DNA of 50,327 nt from a bacterium. Its GTDB lineage: Bacteria > UBP14 > UBA6098 > JAFGQG01. The first letter of the stretch is position 1. The number at the start of each line of letters is the position of its first letter. Under the pieces are notes generated by a model. It saw only the letters and a program-made list of their open reading frames with translations. It searched no databases and was not told the DNA's origin. The stretch covers positions 1 through 50,327 of the forward strand of contig JAFGQG010000124.1 in the NCBI GenBank assembly GCA_016935765.1, given 5' to 3'. This document shows positions 9,180 through 36,985 of the stretch, in pieces. A program made the translations under genes and the position numbers.

Positions 9180-9193
9180 CAAAAAATGGGTAA

Positions 9194-9220
9194 CCACAGA
9201 GACACAGAGACACAGAGAAA
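9194..9220 (+). repeat. ACAGAGACAC repeat, solo copy
   Basis: Three near-tandem units of CCACAGAGACACAGAGAC lie in the gap between the DUF1667 gene and tldD. Other copies are at 13353-13380 (reverse) and 36958-36985. Confidence 0.7.
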
Positions 9221-9317: not shown

Positions 9318-10763
9318 ATGAAAGAATTTACAGATCATGCTTTGAATGTGGCAGAGCATAACAATGCGACTTATGCTGACATTAGGATTCTCAAGGAAAA
9401 GAACGAGTTTATCATGACCAAGAACGGTCAGATAGGGAAGTGTGATGAATCGGAGAGTTACGGTTTTGGTGTGAGAGTGATAGTAGATGGTTCGTGGGGG
9501 TTTGCCTCATCGGGCGAGGTTTCGAAAGCGGAGATCGAGCGGGTTACGGAGCTTGCTTGCCGAATTGCGAAATCTTCAGCAAAGTTATCTCATGAGCCGG
9601 TGGTTCTCGCTCCGGAAGATGTGTACGTTGACAGGTGGTACTCACATTTCCTGATAGATCCTTTTGCGGTTCCATTTGAGAAGAAGCTGGAGCTGCTTTT
9701 CGAGATTGACAAGATATTGCGTAAATCTCCAAAGATAAACATAGCTGAAGCAACTATGGGTTTTGAGCAGGAGCACCAGTATTTTGCATCGTCTGAGGGG
9801 AGTTTCATCGAGCAGAAGATACTGCAGTCGGGTGTAGGGTATTCAGCGACCGCAGTTGAAGGCAGTGAGGTACAGAGAAGATCGTATCCGACTTCGTTCG
9901 GGCGGCAGAACATGCAGTGCGGTTATGAACTTGTGGAATCCCTTGAATTAGTAGAGAATGCGGAGCGCATCAGGGAAGAGGCGGTCGGTTTACTAACCGC
10001 GAGGCAGTGCCCATCCGGGAGGATGGATTTGATACTGGAGGGCTCGCAGTTAGCGCTGCAGATCCACGAGTCATGTGGGCATCCTTCAGAGCTTGATCGC
10101 GTAATTGGCATGGAGGCTAACTACGCCGGAACGAGTTTCCTTACTACGGAAAAATATCGTACCTTTAAATATGGTTCGCCTATCGTGAATATAGTTGCGG
10201 ATGGCACGATTCCGGGCGGTTTGGCAACTGTAGGTTATGACGACGACGGTGTCCGCTCCCAGCGGTGGTTCCTCGTGAATCAGGGCATTACGTGGGGTTA
10301 TCTCACCAACCGTGAGCTGGCTCATATCGTGAATGAACCGAGGAGTAAGGGCTGCAACCGCGCGGATGGCTGGGTGCATCTACCAATGGTTCGAATGACC
10401 AACATCAGCCTCTCCCCGGGTGACTGGGAGTACGATGACCTCATCGCCGACACAAAGGATGGCATCCTGATGGAGATAAATAAGAGCTGGTCCATCGATC
10501 AGAGGCGGTTGAATTTCCAGTTCGGGTGCGAGATCGGGTGGCTGATAAAGAACGGTAAGATCACGGAGATGGTGAAGAACCCGACGTACCAGGGTATCAC
10601 ACCGGAATTCTGGGGGAATTGCGACGCGATTTCCAACGAGAAGTACTGGACGCTCTGGGGGGTGAACAACTGTGGGAAGGGTCAGCCCGGTCAGCGCGCG
10701 CAGATGTCGCACGGCGCTTCTCCAGCACGGTTCAGGAACGTTGAAGTTGGTATCGATAAATAA
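9318..10763 (+). CDS. tldD: TldD/PmbA family metallopeptidase
   Basis: 481 residues from the ATG at 9318, chosen because AAGGAGAT lies 6 bases upstream; the frame is open for 15 codons before it. The catalytic zinc motif HESCGH (HExxxH) lies in QIHESCGHPSELDR around residue 255, followed by the conserved LATVGYDDDG segment. TldD normally acts as a heterodimer with TldE/PmbA in peptide processing or quality control; no TldE partner is next to it here. The stop codon directly abuts the left repeat of the GxxExxY element, so a downstream partner could have been separated by that insertion. Cytoplasmic. Confidence 0.9.
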   Translation: MKEFTDHALNVAEHNNATYADIRILKEKNEFIMTKNGQIGKCDESESYGFGVRVIVDGSWGFASSGEVSKAEIERVTELACRIAKSSAKLSHEPVVLAPEDVYVDRWYSHFLIDPFAVPFEKKLELLFEIDKILRKSPKINIAEATMGFEQEHQYFASSEGSFIEQKILQSGVGYSATAVEGSEVQRRSYPTSFGRQNMQCGYELVESLELVENAERIREEAVGLLTARQCPSGRMDLILEGSQLALQIHESCGHPSELDRVIGMEANYAGTSFLTTEKYRTFKYGSPIVNIVADGTIPGGLATVGYDDDGVRSQRWFLVNQGITWGYLTNRELAHIVNEPRSKGCNRADGWVHLPMVRMTNISLSPGDWEYDDLIADTKDGILMEINKSWSIDQRRLNFQFGCEIGWLIKNGKITEMVKNPTYQGITPEFWGNCDAISNEKYWTLWGVNNCGKGQPGQRAQMSHGASPARFRNVEVGIDK

Positions 10764-11216
10764 AGCCACAGATTTACGCAGATTAACACAAATGGTTAAG
10801 AAAGAACAAATATTAATCTACAGCGAACTGTCTTATAAGATTATCGGTTTGGCAATGGAGGTTCATCGGAAATTAGGCCATGGTTACCTGGAAAAAGTTT
10901 ATGAAAATTCGCTAATGGTGCTTTTTCGAAGGGAAAGTATTAAGGCTGAGCAGCAAGTACCTATAAAAGTATATTTCGAAGGTGAGATTGTTAGGGATTA
11001 TCGTGCTGATATTCCCGTTGAGGAGAAGGTGATTTTAGAATTAAGATCTGCAAGTGAAATAACTGATGCTGATAGGGCACAGTCTTTAAACTACTTAAAA
11101 TCAACCGGCAAGAAATTATTGATCCTTATTAATTTTGGAAGAGAGTCGTTGGAATTTGAGAGATTTGTTTGGTGGTTATTAAAGACAATTAGTGAAAATT
11201 CGTGTAATTAGTGGCA
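10764..11216 (+). mobile_element. GxxExxY gene bracketed by inverted GCCAC-type repeats
   Basis: The left end is AGCCACAGATTTACGCAG (from 10764), immediately after the tldD stop. The right end, read on the minus strand from 11216, is TGCCACTAATTACACGAATT. Both begin with GCCAC facing outward, so the unit has terminal-inverted-repeat-like boundaries. The interior is almost entirely one gene. The unit fills the space between two plus-strand genes with no spare bases. The mobile nature is an inference from structure and from solo and ORF-less relatives elsewhere in the window. Confidence 0.5.
10792..11211 (+). CDS. GxxExxY protein (PD-(D/E)XK nuclease superfamily)
   Basis: 139 residues from the ATG at 10792. 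The open frame runs 40 codons further upstream, but that part lies inside tldD and the repeat. The family signature GxxExxY is present as GHGYLEKVY, in KIIGLAMEVHRKLGHGYLE. The core carries DYRADI and then VILELRS, where family members usually have an E-x-K; here the lysine position is arginine (AGA), a one-base change from a lysine codon. That could lower or abolish nuclease activity if the fold is catalytic. The start and the last codons lie within the flanking repeats. The biochemical role of the family is not established. Confidence 0.85.
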   Translation: MVKKEQILIYSELSYKIIGLAMEVHRKLGHGYLEKVYENSLMVLFRRESIKAEQQVPIKVYFEGEIVRDYRADIPVEEKVILELRSASEITDADRAQSLNYLKSTGKKLLILINFGRESLEFERFVWWLLKTISENSCN

Positions 11217-11217
11217 A

Positions 11218-13236
11218 ATGAAAATCAATCAGATAAAAGTTATTCTCAAGAAGGAATTCAAGGAGACTCTTCGCGATAAGAGAACCCTGTTCATCACTAT
11301 TATTTTACCCATTATTCTCTATCCGGTTTTGATTATTGGAATTTCGCAACTCTCCATATTCCAGGTGCAGAAGATACAGGAGAAGACGTTCAAGATTGAT
11401 ATTGAAGGTGAGGAGTTCGCTCCCGGATTGGTAGAGCAGATTGAGGATGATTCGCAGTTCGTGATAGTGGATGCAGAGGATCCGGTCGGAAGTATCAAGG
11501 CGGAGAAGATTCATCTAAATCTGGTGATACCTGAAGGTTTTGAGGATAGTATCGCTAACGAGAAGCAAGTAAGTGTGAAGGTATATTATGACGGCGCTGT
11601 GGAGGAGTCTGAAGCCGCCCAGAATCGCTTATCCGGAATAATAAGGGAATACCGGGTACAGCTCGTTGAGGAGTGGGTTTCAGGAAAGGGATTGAATGCC
11701 GAATTTGTGAGACCGATAGACACTGATTGGGAGAACATCGCCACGCCGAAGAAGATGGGCGCGTACTTTTTTGGGGGGATTCTCGCGTTCTTCGTGATAG
11801 TGATGGTCATAACAGGGGCTTATTACCCATCTATCGATATGTTCGCGGGGGAGAAGGAGCGCGGCACCCTCGAGACCCTGTTGGTGAGTCCTGCAGGAAG
11901 GCTTGAGATAGTGGTTGGAAAATATCTCACCGTATTCATCCTGGCGATGATAACAGCGGTGCTGAACCTTGCAAGCATGGGGATTACGCTCACCCACGGT
12001 ATGTTCCTGATGGAAAAGGCTGCGGATATTAAATTCTCTATCGATATTACGAGTTTACTTTCAATTTTTGTAATACTTGTGCCACTTGCTGCACTGTTCT
12101 CTGCGATATTCATATCGCTATCAGCTTTCGCGAAAAGTTACAAGGAAGCGCAGAGCTACCTGACACCCTTATTCATAATTTCCGAGCTTCCCGCGATGAT
12201 CGTACTCCTTCCCGGAATGCAGCTAACAAATGCTGTTGCTTTCATACCGGTTGTAAATGTGGCTTTATTATTCAAGGAAATGCTGATGGGGAAATTTATC
12301 GCTGCCCATGTGATTTTCGTGTTTCTGTCCATGTCGATTTACGCTGCTCTCGCGCTGAAATGGGCTTCCAAATTGCTGCGTAAAGAGGATGTTCTCGTTG
12401 GTGATAAGCTGGAATCACCGTTTAAATACCTTTTTAGAAAACGTACAATAATTATAGCGGATTACCCTAATATGGGGGATAGCATATTTCTATTCATTTT
12501 TTGCCTTCTGCTTCTATGGTTTATCGGGCAGCCGCTTCAATTGAACAATATTATAACCGGTTTGATCATTACGGAATTAGCGCTGGTGTTTCTTCCTTCT
12601 CTGATTCTATGTAAAAAATATGGGATAACGCCTTCTAAATTAGGATTGAGTTTGCCATCTCTACGTAACTTTTTGCTCATAATCCCTTTAGCAGTTGCCG
12701 GATTTGTCGTGGGCAGCCAGACGCAGGTTTTCTCAAGCTGGATTTTTCCACCGCCGACAGATTATATAGGGAGATTTACTGAGATGCTGGGAGACCTTGG
12801 AGATATTGGATTGTGGAATGGGCTGCTGGTGATCTCGATTCTCCCGGGGATATGCGAGGAATTCCTGTTCCGCGGGTACATACAAACCGGGCTGGTAAAG
12901 AAATGGGGCAAGGTCTGGGGTGTCTTGGTCGCAAGCTTGTTGTTCGCAGTTTTTCACCTCGATCCGTACCGCTTCCTGGGTGTTTTTATCCTGGGCATAA
13001 TACTCGGGATAATATTCGTTTCGACGGGTTCACTTCTCCTTTCGATGCTGGCGCATGTCCTTATCAACGGAACTTCTTTTTGCTTATCATATTTTGGAAC
13101 TTTAGAGCAACTGGAACAAATACTCGAGGATAAAATACTTTTTGTTGCGTTATTTTTACTTTCAATTACATTGGTTTACATATTATTAAGATTAATTAAG
13201 GGAAACTCTGTTAACTGGATAAAGTCAAGTCGATGA
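11218..13236 (+). CDS. ABC-2 type permease fused to a CPBP intramembrane protease
   Basis: 672 residues. The first 400 or so form a NatB/ABC-2 export permease: an N-terminal cytoplasmic helix and membrane segment (TLFITIILPIILYPVLII), a large extracytoplasmic loop, then five or six membrane helices with GEKERGTLETLLVSP. The C-terminal part (about 430-672) is a CPBP/Abi-type metalloprotease domain with EEFLFRG (near residue 546), FAVFH (near 579) and AHVLING (near 611). This fusion is known in other phyla. No ATP-binding subunit (NatA) is adjacent, although the GxxExxY element ends only 2 bases before this ATG and may have split an operon. No good Shine-Dalgarno is visible, consistent with a disturbed 5' region. 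Substrate unknown. Confidence 0.85.
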   Translation: MKINQIKVILKKEFKETLRDKRTLFITIILPIILYPVLIIGISQLSIFQVQKIQEKTFKIDIEGEEFAPGLVEQIEDDSQFVIVDAEDPVGSIKAEKIHLNLVIPEGFEDSIANEKQVSVKVYYDGAVEESEAAQNRLSGIIREYRVQLVEEWVSGKGLNAEFVRPIDTDWENIATPKKMGAYFFGGILAFFVIVMVITGAYYPSIDMFAGEKERGTLETLLVSPAGRLEIVVGKYLTVFILAMITAVLNLASMGITLTHGMFLMEKAADIKFSIDITSLLSIFVILVPLAALFSAIFISLSAFAKSYKEAQSYLTPLFIISELPAMIVLLPGMQLTNAVAFIPVVNVALLFKEMLMGKFIAAHVIFVFLSMSIYAALALKWASKLLRKEDVLVGDKLESPFKYLFRKRTIIIADYPNMGDSIFLFIFCLLLLWFIGQPLQLNNIITGLIITELALVFLPSLILCKKYGITPSKLGLSLPSLRNFLLIIPLAVAGFVVGSQTQVFSSWIFPPPTDYIGRFTEMLGDLGDIGLWNGLLVISILPGICEEFLFRGYIQTGLVKKWGKVWGVLVASLLFAVFHLDPYRFLGVFILGIILGIIFVSTGSLLLSMLAHVLINGTSFCLSYFGTLEQLEQILEDKILFVALFLLSITLVYILLRLIKGNSVNWIKSSR

Positions 13237-13352: not shown

Positions 13353-13426
13353 CTTCTCTGTGTCTCCGTGACTCTGTGGTTCAATTTTTTTTTCATCCAA
13401 TCATCCATCCCTCCAACCATCCATTT
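13353..13426. repeat. Composite repeat: reversed ACAGAGACAC block plus ATCC block
   Basis: 13353-13380 is the reverse complement of the ACCACAGAGTCACGGAGACAC repeat type. It is followed, after a T-run, by ATCC-rich units (CATCCAATCATCCATCC, 13397-13424). The same ATCC block recurs at 25621-25650 and, inside a coding sequence, at 48640-48668. The block lies just upstream of kdsC. Confidence 0.65.
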
Positions 13427-29862: not shown

Positions 29863-29987
29863 TTGGTCTGGTAAACCAATATAATGACATAAAATTTGGT
29901 TTATCAAACCAAATTCGAAATGATTAATCCTGGTTTTTTCTTCTGGTACTTTGAAAAAAAGCCTTGACTTTGGTTTATTAAACCAAA
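29863..29987. promoter_or_regulatory. Three-copy palindromic operator upstream of the DUF4143 ATPase gene
   Basis: Copies are at 29863-29879 (TTGGTCT/GTAAACCAA, one mismatch), 29893-29915 (AATTTGGTTT-ATC-AAACCAAATT, perfect 10-bp arms) and 29969-29987 (TTTGGTTT-ATT-AAACCAAA, perfect 8-bp arms). The third is bracketed by a possible -35 TTGACT (29964-29969) and -10 TAAAAT (29989-29994), spacing 19. The layout suggests a repressor dimer blocking the promoter, with upstream sites helping; the regulator is not identified. Confidence 0.65.
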
Positions 29988-30018
29988 TTAAAATGATAAT
30001 TTAAATTGGAAAAGTGAT

Positions 30019-36957: not shown

Positions 36958-36985
36958 AACACAGAGACACAGAGACACGGAGAAC
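36958..36985 (+). repeat. ACAGAGACAC repeat, solo copy
   Basis: AACACAGAGACACAGAGACA followed by CGGAG; same family as 9194-9220 and 13353-13380. Confidence 0.7.

Follow-up and report, generated by a model that had tools for sequence, protein, structure and literature searches.

Inverted iteron arrays frame GxxExxY nuclease-fold genes across bacterial phyla and suggest a tiny mobile or domesticated element

The GxxExxY locus and its two ends

The window analyzed here, a 50,327-nucleotide stretch of bacterial DNA, contains a gene for a GxxExxY protein, with tldD and an ABC permease gene as its two neighbors and GCCAC iteron arrays facing outward on both of its sides. The tldD stop codon occupies positions 10761–10763 and is followed by these features:

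10765–10793, plus strand: left end, three iterons with a period of 10, CACAGATTTA-CGCAGATTAA-CACAAAT preceded by GC; the array starts 2 nt past the tldD stop and overlaps the GxxExxY ATG
10792–11211, plus strand: GxxExxY protein gene, 139 aa, PD-(D/E)XK fold according to the structural matches of a predicted model
11187–11215, minus strand: right end, three iterons CACTAATTA-CACGAATTTT-CACTAATT, inverted; the array takes in the last GxxExxY codons and the stop

The full left repeat is GCCACAGATTTACGCAGATTAACACAAAT, and the right repeat, read on the reverse strand, is GCCACTAATTACACGAATTTTCACTAATT. The family-consistent start of the GxxExxY gene is the ATG at 10792; a longer frame beginning with GTG at 10672 would overlap tldD. 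The stop codon of the gene is at 11209–11211, and the permease ATG (11218) comes just past the right repeat. In the product of the permease gene itself (11218–13236), the ABC permease is joined to a CPBP intramembrane protease (NF041647, 675 bits). Further along the window, an AT-rich inverted repeat cluster (AATTTGGTTTATCAAACCAAATT) at 29882–30004 has no relation to the GxxExxY unit. A first-pass annotation of this DNA had described inverted GCCAC-type ends framing the gene, and its coordinates proved correct to the base.

The left and right repeat sequences each match the window only once and have 0 matches in 100 shuffles, the patterns having been derived from these very sites. A loose three-iteron pattern found 2 matches on both strands of the 50-kb window, namely the two ends in their outward-facing orientation; the reversed window gave 0 matches, and dinucleotide shuffles averaged 0.08 (maximum 1). 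Because the loose pattern was drawn up after the window repeats had been seen, the family-wide test described below is the independent one. Compared with each other, the left and right ends of the window unit show no significant similarity (score 14, p 0.99; score 17, p 0.55 in a second run), and all they have in common is GCCAC and the period-10 layout. As expected from this lack of a significant match, the pair was not returned by a window-wide inverted repeat finder. The case for a unit at this locus therefore rests on its relatives. Among the flanks of 82 such relatives, the best matches to the right end of the window unit are those of L010 (Geobacter) and L009 (Dadabacteria), which also have the two closest proteins.

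The window protein belongs to the families TIGR04256 (125.9 bits; cut-off 35) and PF13366 (116 bits; cut-off 22), which are its only profile matches. Its AlphaFold model is confident (pLDDT 93.4), and the first Foldseek matches to this model are DNA nucleases: Cas4 SSO0001 (E value 1.9e-4), lambda exonuclease (3.9e-4), AddAB/AdnAB and MGME1. No sequence relative of known structure was found for GxxExxY proteins, and among the PADLOC anti-phage defence models the window protein has no match and its relatives match only Cas4, weakly (E 0.001 or more). Catalytic E, D, ExK and QxxxY residues are conserved across the family. In the window protein the motif reads E34..D73..E83-L-R85..Q97..Y101, with arginine in place of the lysine. 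ExK is found in 97/98 GxxExxY proteins, and the window copy is the sole exception (ELR), having kept E34, D73, E83, Q97 and Y101. Since it is the only one of 98 with this replacement, the window protein is probably inactive; the arginine could also be a sequencing error of one base. Taken together with ends that fail to match, the absence of this lysine suggests a copy that no longer works, having decayed or been domesticated.

Iteron ends in the GxxExxY and four-helix-bundle families

Relatives of the window gene were collected as 67 loci from one genome scan, extra paralogs in 24 of those genomes, and plasmid records. The left flank of each gene was compared with the reverse complement of its right flank, and the score was calibrated on 100 dinucleotide shuffles. 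At p<=0.01, matched inverted flanks were detected for 82/98 distinct GxxExxY genes, which represent about a dozen phyla; the same flank test found no matched ends for the other 16. The control sets scored at 1–3%, with 5/149 neighboring ORFs (one of the five being itself a four-helix-bundle gene, L038) and 5/451 random spans passing. Genes fetched once the rule had been set and held out until then behaved in the same way, with inverted flanks in 12/15. The first-pass annotation had proposed looking for such ends beside other GxxExxY genes, and this check came out in its favor. The positives include isolates (Chromobacterium aquaticum, Spirosoma oryzae, Lutispora, Bernardetia and Bacteroides finegoldii), so the layout is not an artefact of metagenome-assembled genomes. 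Inverted ends are the rule of the GxxExxY family. The gene itself is patchily distributed (13/61 relatives), and no GxxExxY relative was found in viral contigs or phage records. On a Fusobacteria plasmid (CP102406; L095), the flanks of the gene look like direct copies (CAGATTTAATCCGTGTACCTAT) and not inverted ones.

Each end is an array of roughly three short iterons, spaced with a period of 8–10 (mode 9). Their sequence types vary (CACGGAANNN, CACAAAGNN, ACAGGATTN, CGCAGATGAA and others), differing among species and among paralogs within one genome. Two loci (L137 and L140) have CACGAAT/CACGAAA iterons with small GC-rich hairpins between them, for example GCGGCCTTCGCCGC. Across the family, end similarity tracks protein similarity (rho 0.22, p 0.001). 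This coupling persists for pairs below 70% protein identity and is gone below 55%. Cross-phylum pairs with more than 50% protein identity have a mean end score of 20.5 as against about 14 (p 0.029).

Genes for four-helix-bundle (S23/IVP) proteins are also present in 44/50 GxxExxY genomes, and they show a parallel organization. Inverted iteron ends were found at 25/30 such genes (TIGR02436; L097–L126 and L092), with a sharp 7-bp period (values of 7 and 14). Their sequence is unrelated to that of the GxxExxY ends. The idea that the two kinds of gene have ends in common within one genome was rejected, the same-genome score being 21.4 versus 20.5 for other genomes. The intervening sequence (IVS) of Coxiella has a 28-bp terminal inverted repeat with three GACAGAT heptamers before the S23 ORF and undergoes RNase III cleavage (PMC4990558); these heptamers agree with the 7-bp period measured here. 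It is mainly the match between iteron period and protein family that suggests each protein works on the ends of its own unit.

The genome from which the window comes has five GxxExxY copies, with ends of the types CACAGATT, CACAGAG, CGCAGATG and GACAGGATT. Within the window, solo CACAGAG-type arrays of the form AACC-(CACNGAGN)3-AAAAA were found at three positions:

9193–9217, plus strand: solo array without inverted partner
13356–13380, minus strand: solo array without inverted partner
36958–36982, plus strand: solo array without inverted partner

A two-iteron CACAGAG pattern matches the whole genome 104 times, versus 48 for the reversed control, and no inverted partner was found within 700 bp of the arrays in this genome, which stand solo. 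They correspond to the end type of another paralog (C192:12987-13337). The first-pass suggestion that the window GxxExxY protein acts on the CACAGAG repeats consequently fell away, since these repeats carry the ends of a different paralog and are solo arrays. A segment of the same contig (L076, G000:C192:8500-15000) has, within 3.4 kb, a pair of GxxExxY genes and a single four-helix-bundle gene, each by its own repeat type. Another copy in this genome (L005, G000:C121:9529-9873) is broken by a TAA stop, has weak ACAGGATT-type ends and is apparently decaying.

Unit boundaries, gene-less copies and possible modes of spread

Where units lie at unrelated sites, their nucleotide homology can end within a few nt of the outer repeat edges. 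For example, the end points relative to these edges are 0/0 and +3/+3 for L057/L065, and +1/0 and +3/+4 for L041/L065. At one site in sibling genomes, the ORF is present in L059 and absent from start to stop in L061. In C. aquaticum, one gene unit is accompanied by six gene-less units with common CACGGAA ends, and the corresponding array pattern has 20 matches in this genome versus 1 for the reversed control. A metagenome-assembled genome (G112) has three near-identical gene-less units of ~80 bp whose flanks are unrelated. As single-stranded DNA, gene-less units form strong hairpins (z -7.1 and -10.5), their ends pairing into long stems. They could stem from local recombination or from another enzyme.

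An empty tldD–permease interval, which the first-pass annotation had said to look for, was found once: in the nearest relative (G001, related at the family level) the two genes are 49 bp apart and there is no GxxExxY gene. Because G001 is of another genus, its empty interval shows absence and not an exact empty site. The sibling genomes, which are rearranged around the tested units, yielded no excision, no target-site duplication and no close relative with a clean empty site. The recurrence of the layout and the gene-less hairpin copies suggest a little-known tiny mobile or domesticated element. Of the proposal that the gene forms a discrete mobile or domesticated element, the discrete unit is upheld by the inverted ends (82/98 and 12/15) and the gene-less copies, and its mobility is something we infer.

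The reading we favor, and consider probable, is that the window holds a decayed or domesticated copy of an element that is widespread, measures ~0.45–0.65 kb and is REPIN/RAYT-like, with a PD-(D/E)XK nuclease driving its spread. Such an element would encode a single-domain GxxExxY nuclease between two inverted arrays of about three 8–10 bp iterons each. The nuclease would recognize the iterons of its own ends and those of gene-less units with like ends, its substrate probably being either double-stranded repeats about one helical turn apart or a hairpin formed upon strand separation. It would nick or cut at the iterons, and host replication or repair would then copy the unit to new sites in a transposition-like process or by gene conversion, as is thought to occur when RAYTs act on REPINs. 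Binding, cleavage and protein-driven spread by GxxExxY are all inferred; that the protein would cut its own repeats is suggested by its co-variation with the ends and by its fold.

The main rival, which we regard as rather unlikely, is a homing-type process in which the nuclease cuts allelic or dispersed iteron sites, or an uninterrupted target, after which the unit is copied in through recombinational repair. Spread would then be mainly to one site or into repeats already present, and the element would have no transposition reaction of its own. What makes it the main rival is that, in 2/4 sibling pairs, identity is higher within the unit than in the flanks: the L062/L070 and L059/L061 units are 98–100% identical with flanks at 0.87–0.98 or lower, which is suggestive only, whereas L056/L058 has no identity peak. 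In addition, there are 0 synonymous differences between the genes in L062/L070 and L059/L060, several Bacteroidales genomes carry a unit at one and the same locus with conserved flanks, the PD-(D/E)XK core is that of a nuclease, and solo arrays could serve as landing sites. However, site-specific homing does not predict near-identical gene-less units in unrelated flanks.

We give little credence to an RNA-level element, in which the inverted ends would form a dsRNA stem around the ORF that is processed like a 23S rRNA IVS, the protein being RNA-acting or a passenger. The long stems formed by the ends would fit such an element, as would the membership of the parallel four-helix-bundle family in the IVS/S23 family, with the RNase III cleavage known for Coxiella (PMC4990558). 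However, the fold search gives DNA nucleases first, the GxxExxY units studied are intergenic and outside RNA genes, and the ends are iterons whose period is specific to the protein family. Equally improbable is a domesticated regulator without present mobility, whose repeats would be operators or mRNA elements for the gene and its neighbors: the protein is under strong purifying selection (dN/dS 0.02–0.21 for the four pairs whose dS was usable), in the window copy the catalytic K is absent and the ends abut tldD and the permease gene, and solo CACAGAG arrays are scattered over its genome, but the patchy occurrence of the gene (including its absence from G001), the unit-bounded homology and the dispersed gene-less copies require movement, at least in the past.

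A broader version of the favored reading may also hold, and we put it forward more tentatively: GxxExxY nucleases (8–10 bp) and four-helix-bundle S23 proteins (7 bp) would each power their own class of minute iteron-ended element and seed gene-less hairpins. Both proteins are common and multi-copy, and our literature search found no assigned function for either. Should each protein be the enzyme for the repeats that flank its gene, a single explanation would cover two protein families and many anonymous hairpin repeats. If true, this would add a third route, besides DDE and HUH enzymes, for spreading such repeats, and would account for many anonymous repeats between the genes of Verrucomicrobiota, Planctomycetota, Bacteroidota and others. 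The isolate C. aquaticum DSM 19852, with its one gene unit and six gene-less ones, would be a tractable model.

Relation to known systems

A literature search, with most subscription journals outside its coverage, found no described link between GxxExxY proteins and repeats. Several known systems nevertheless resemble the units described here. Classical IS elements and MITEs are distinguished by the lack of a transposase in the window unit and of target-site duplications at the units read. Heptamer repeats of cyanobacteria and Beggiatoaceae (PMC4679880) are likewise dispersed short-period tandem repeats in intergenic DNA, but they are described mainly as direct repeats and are not linked there to a protein family. 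Nucleases of the Cas4/lambda exonuclease/RecB type have in common with GxxExxY proteins the predicted fold and the motif order E..D..ExK..QxxxY. However, GxxExxY proteins are much shorter (about 115–140 aa), and no Fe-S cysteines, helicase, Cas1 or recombinase partner were seen in their units.

The 23S rRNA IVSs of Coxiella and Leptospira also have a small ORF (S23/IVP) within terminal inverted repeats. Their protein is unrelated and their period is another one; moreover, they lie in rRNA helices and are removed as RNA, whereas GxxExxY units are intergenic. The window unit has the layout in common with them but is not a four-helix-bundle ORF inside an rRNA gene.

The closest parallel drawn here is with the REPIN/RAYT system, in which a small nuclease-type gene is likewise associated with dispersed gene-less inverted doublets that form hairpins with variable spacers, singlets occur as remnants, and protein and repeat co-evolve (PMC8049555, PMC8266576). 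Dispersed gene-less doublets with the ends of the nuclease gene were found for the GxxExxY family but not for the window copy, whose genome has solo arrays only. RAYTs are HUH tyrosine single-strand transposases, for which the window unit has no gene, whereas GxxExxY is a PD-(D/E)XK protein. Similarly, REPs are short palindromes, whereas GxxExxY ends are arrays of 8–10 bp iterons and the gene often lies inside the unit. GxxExxY units behave like a REPIN/RAYT system without being one, since their enzyme has no relation to RAYTs and their repeats follow another construction.
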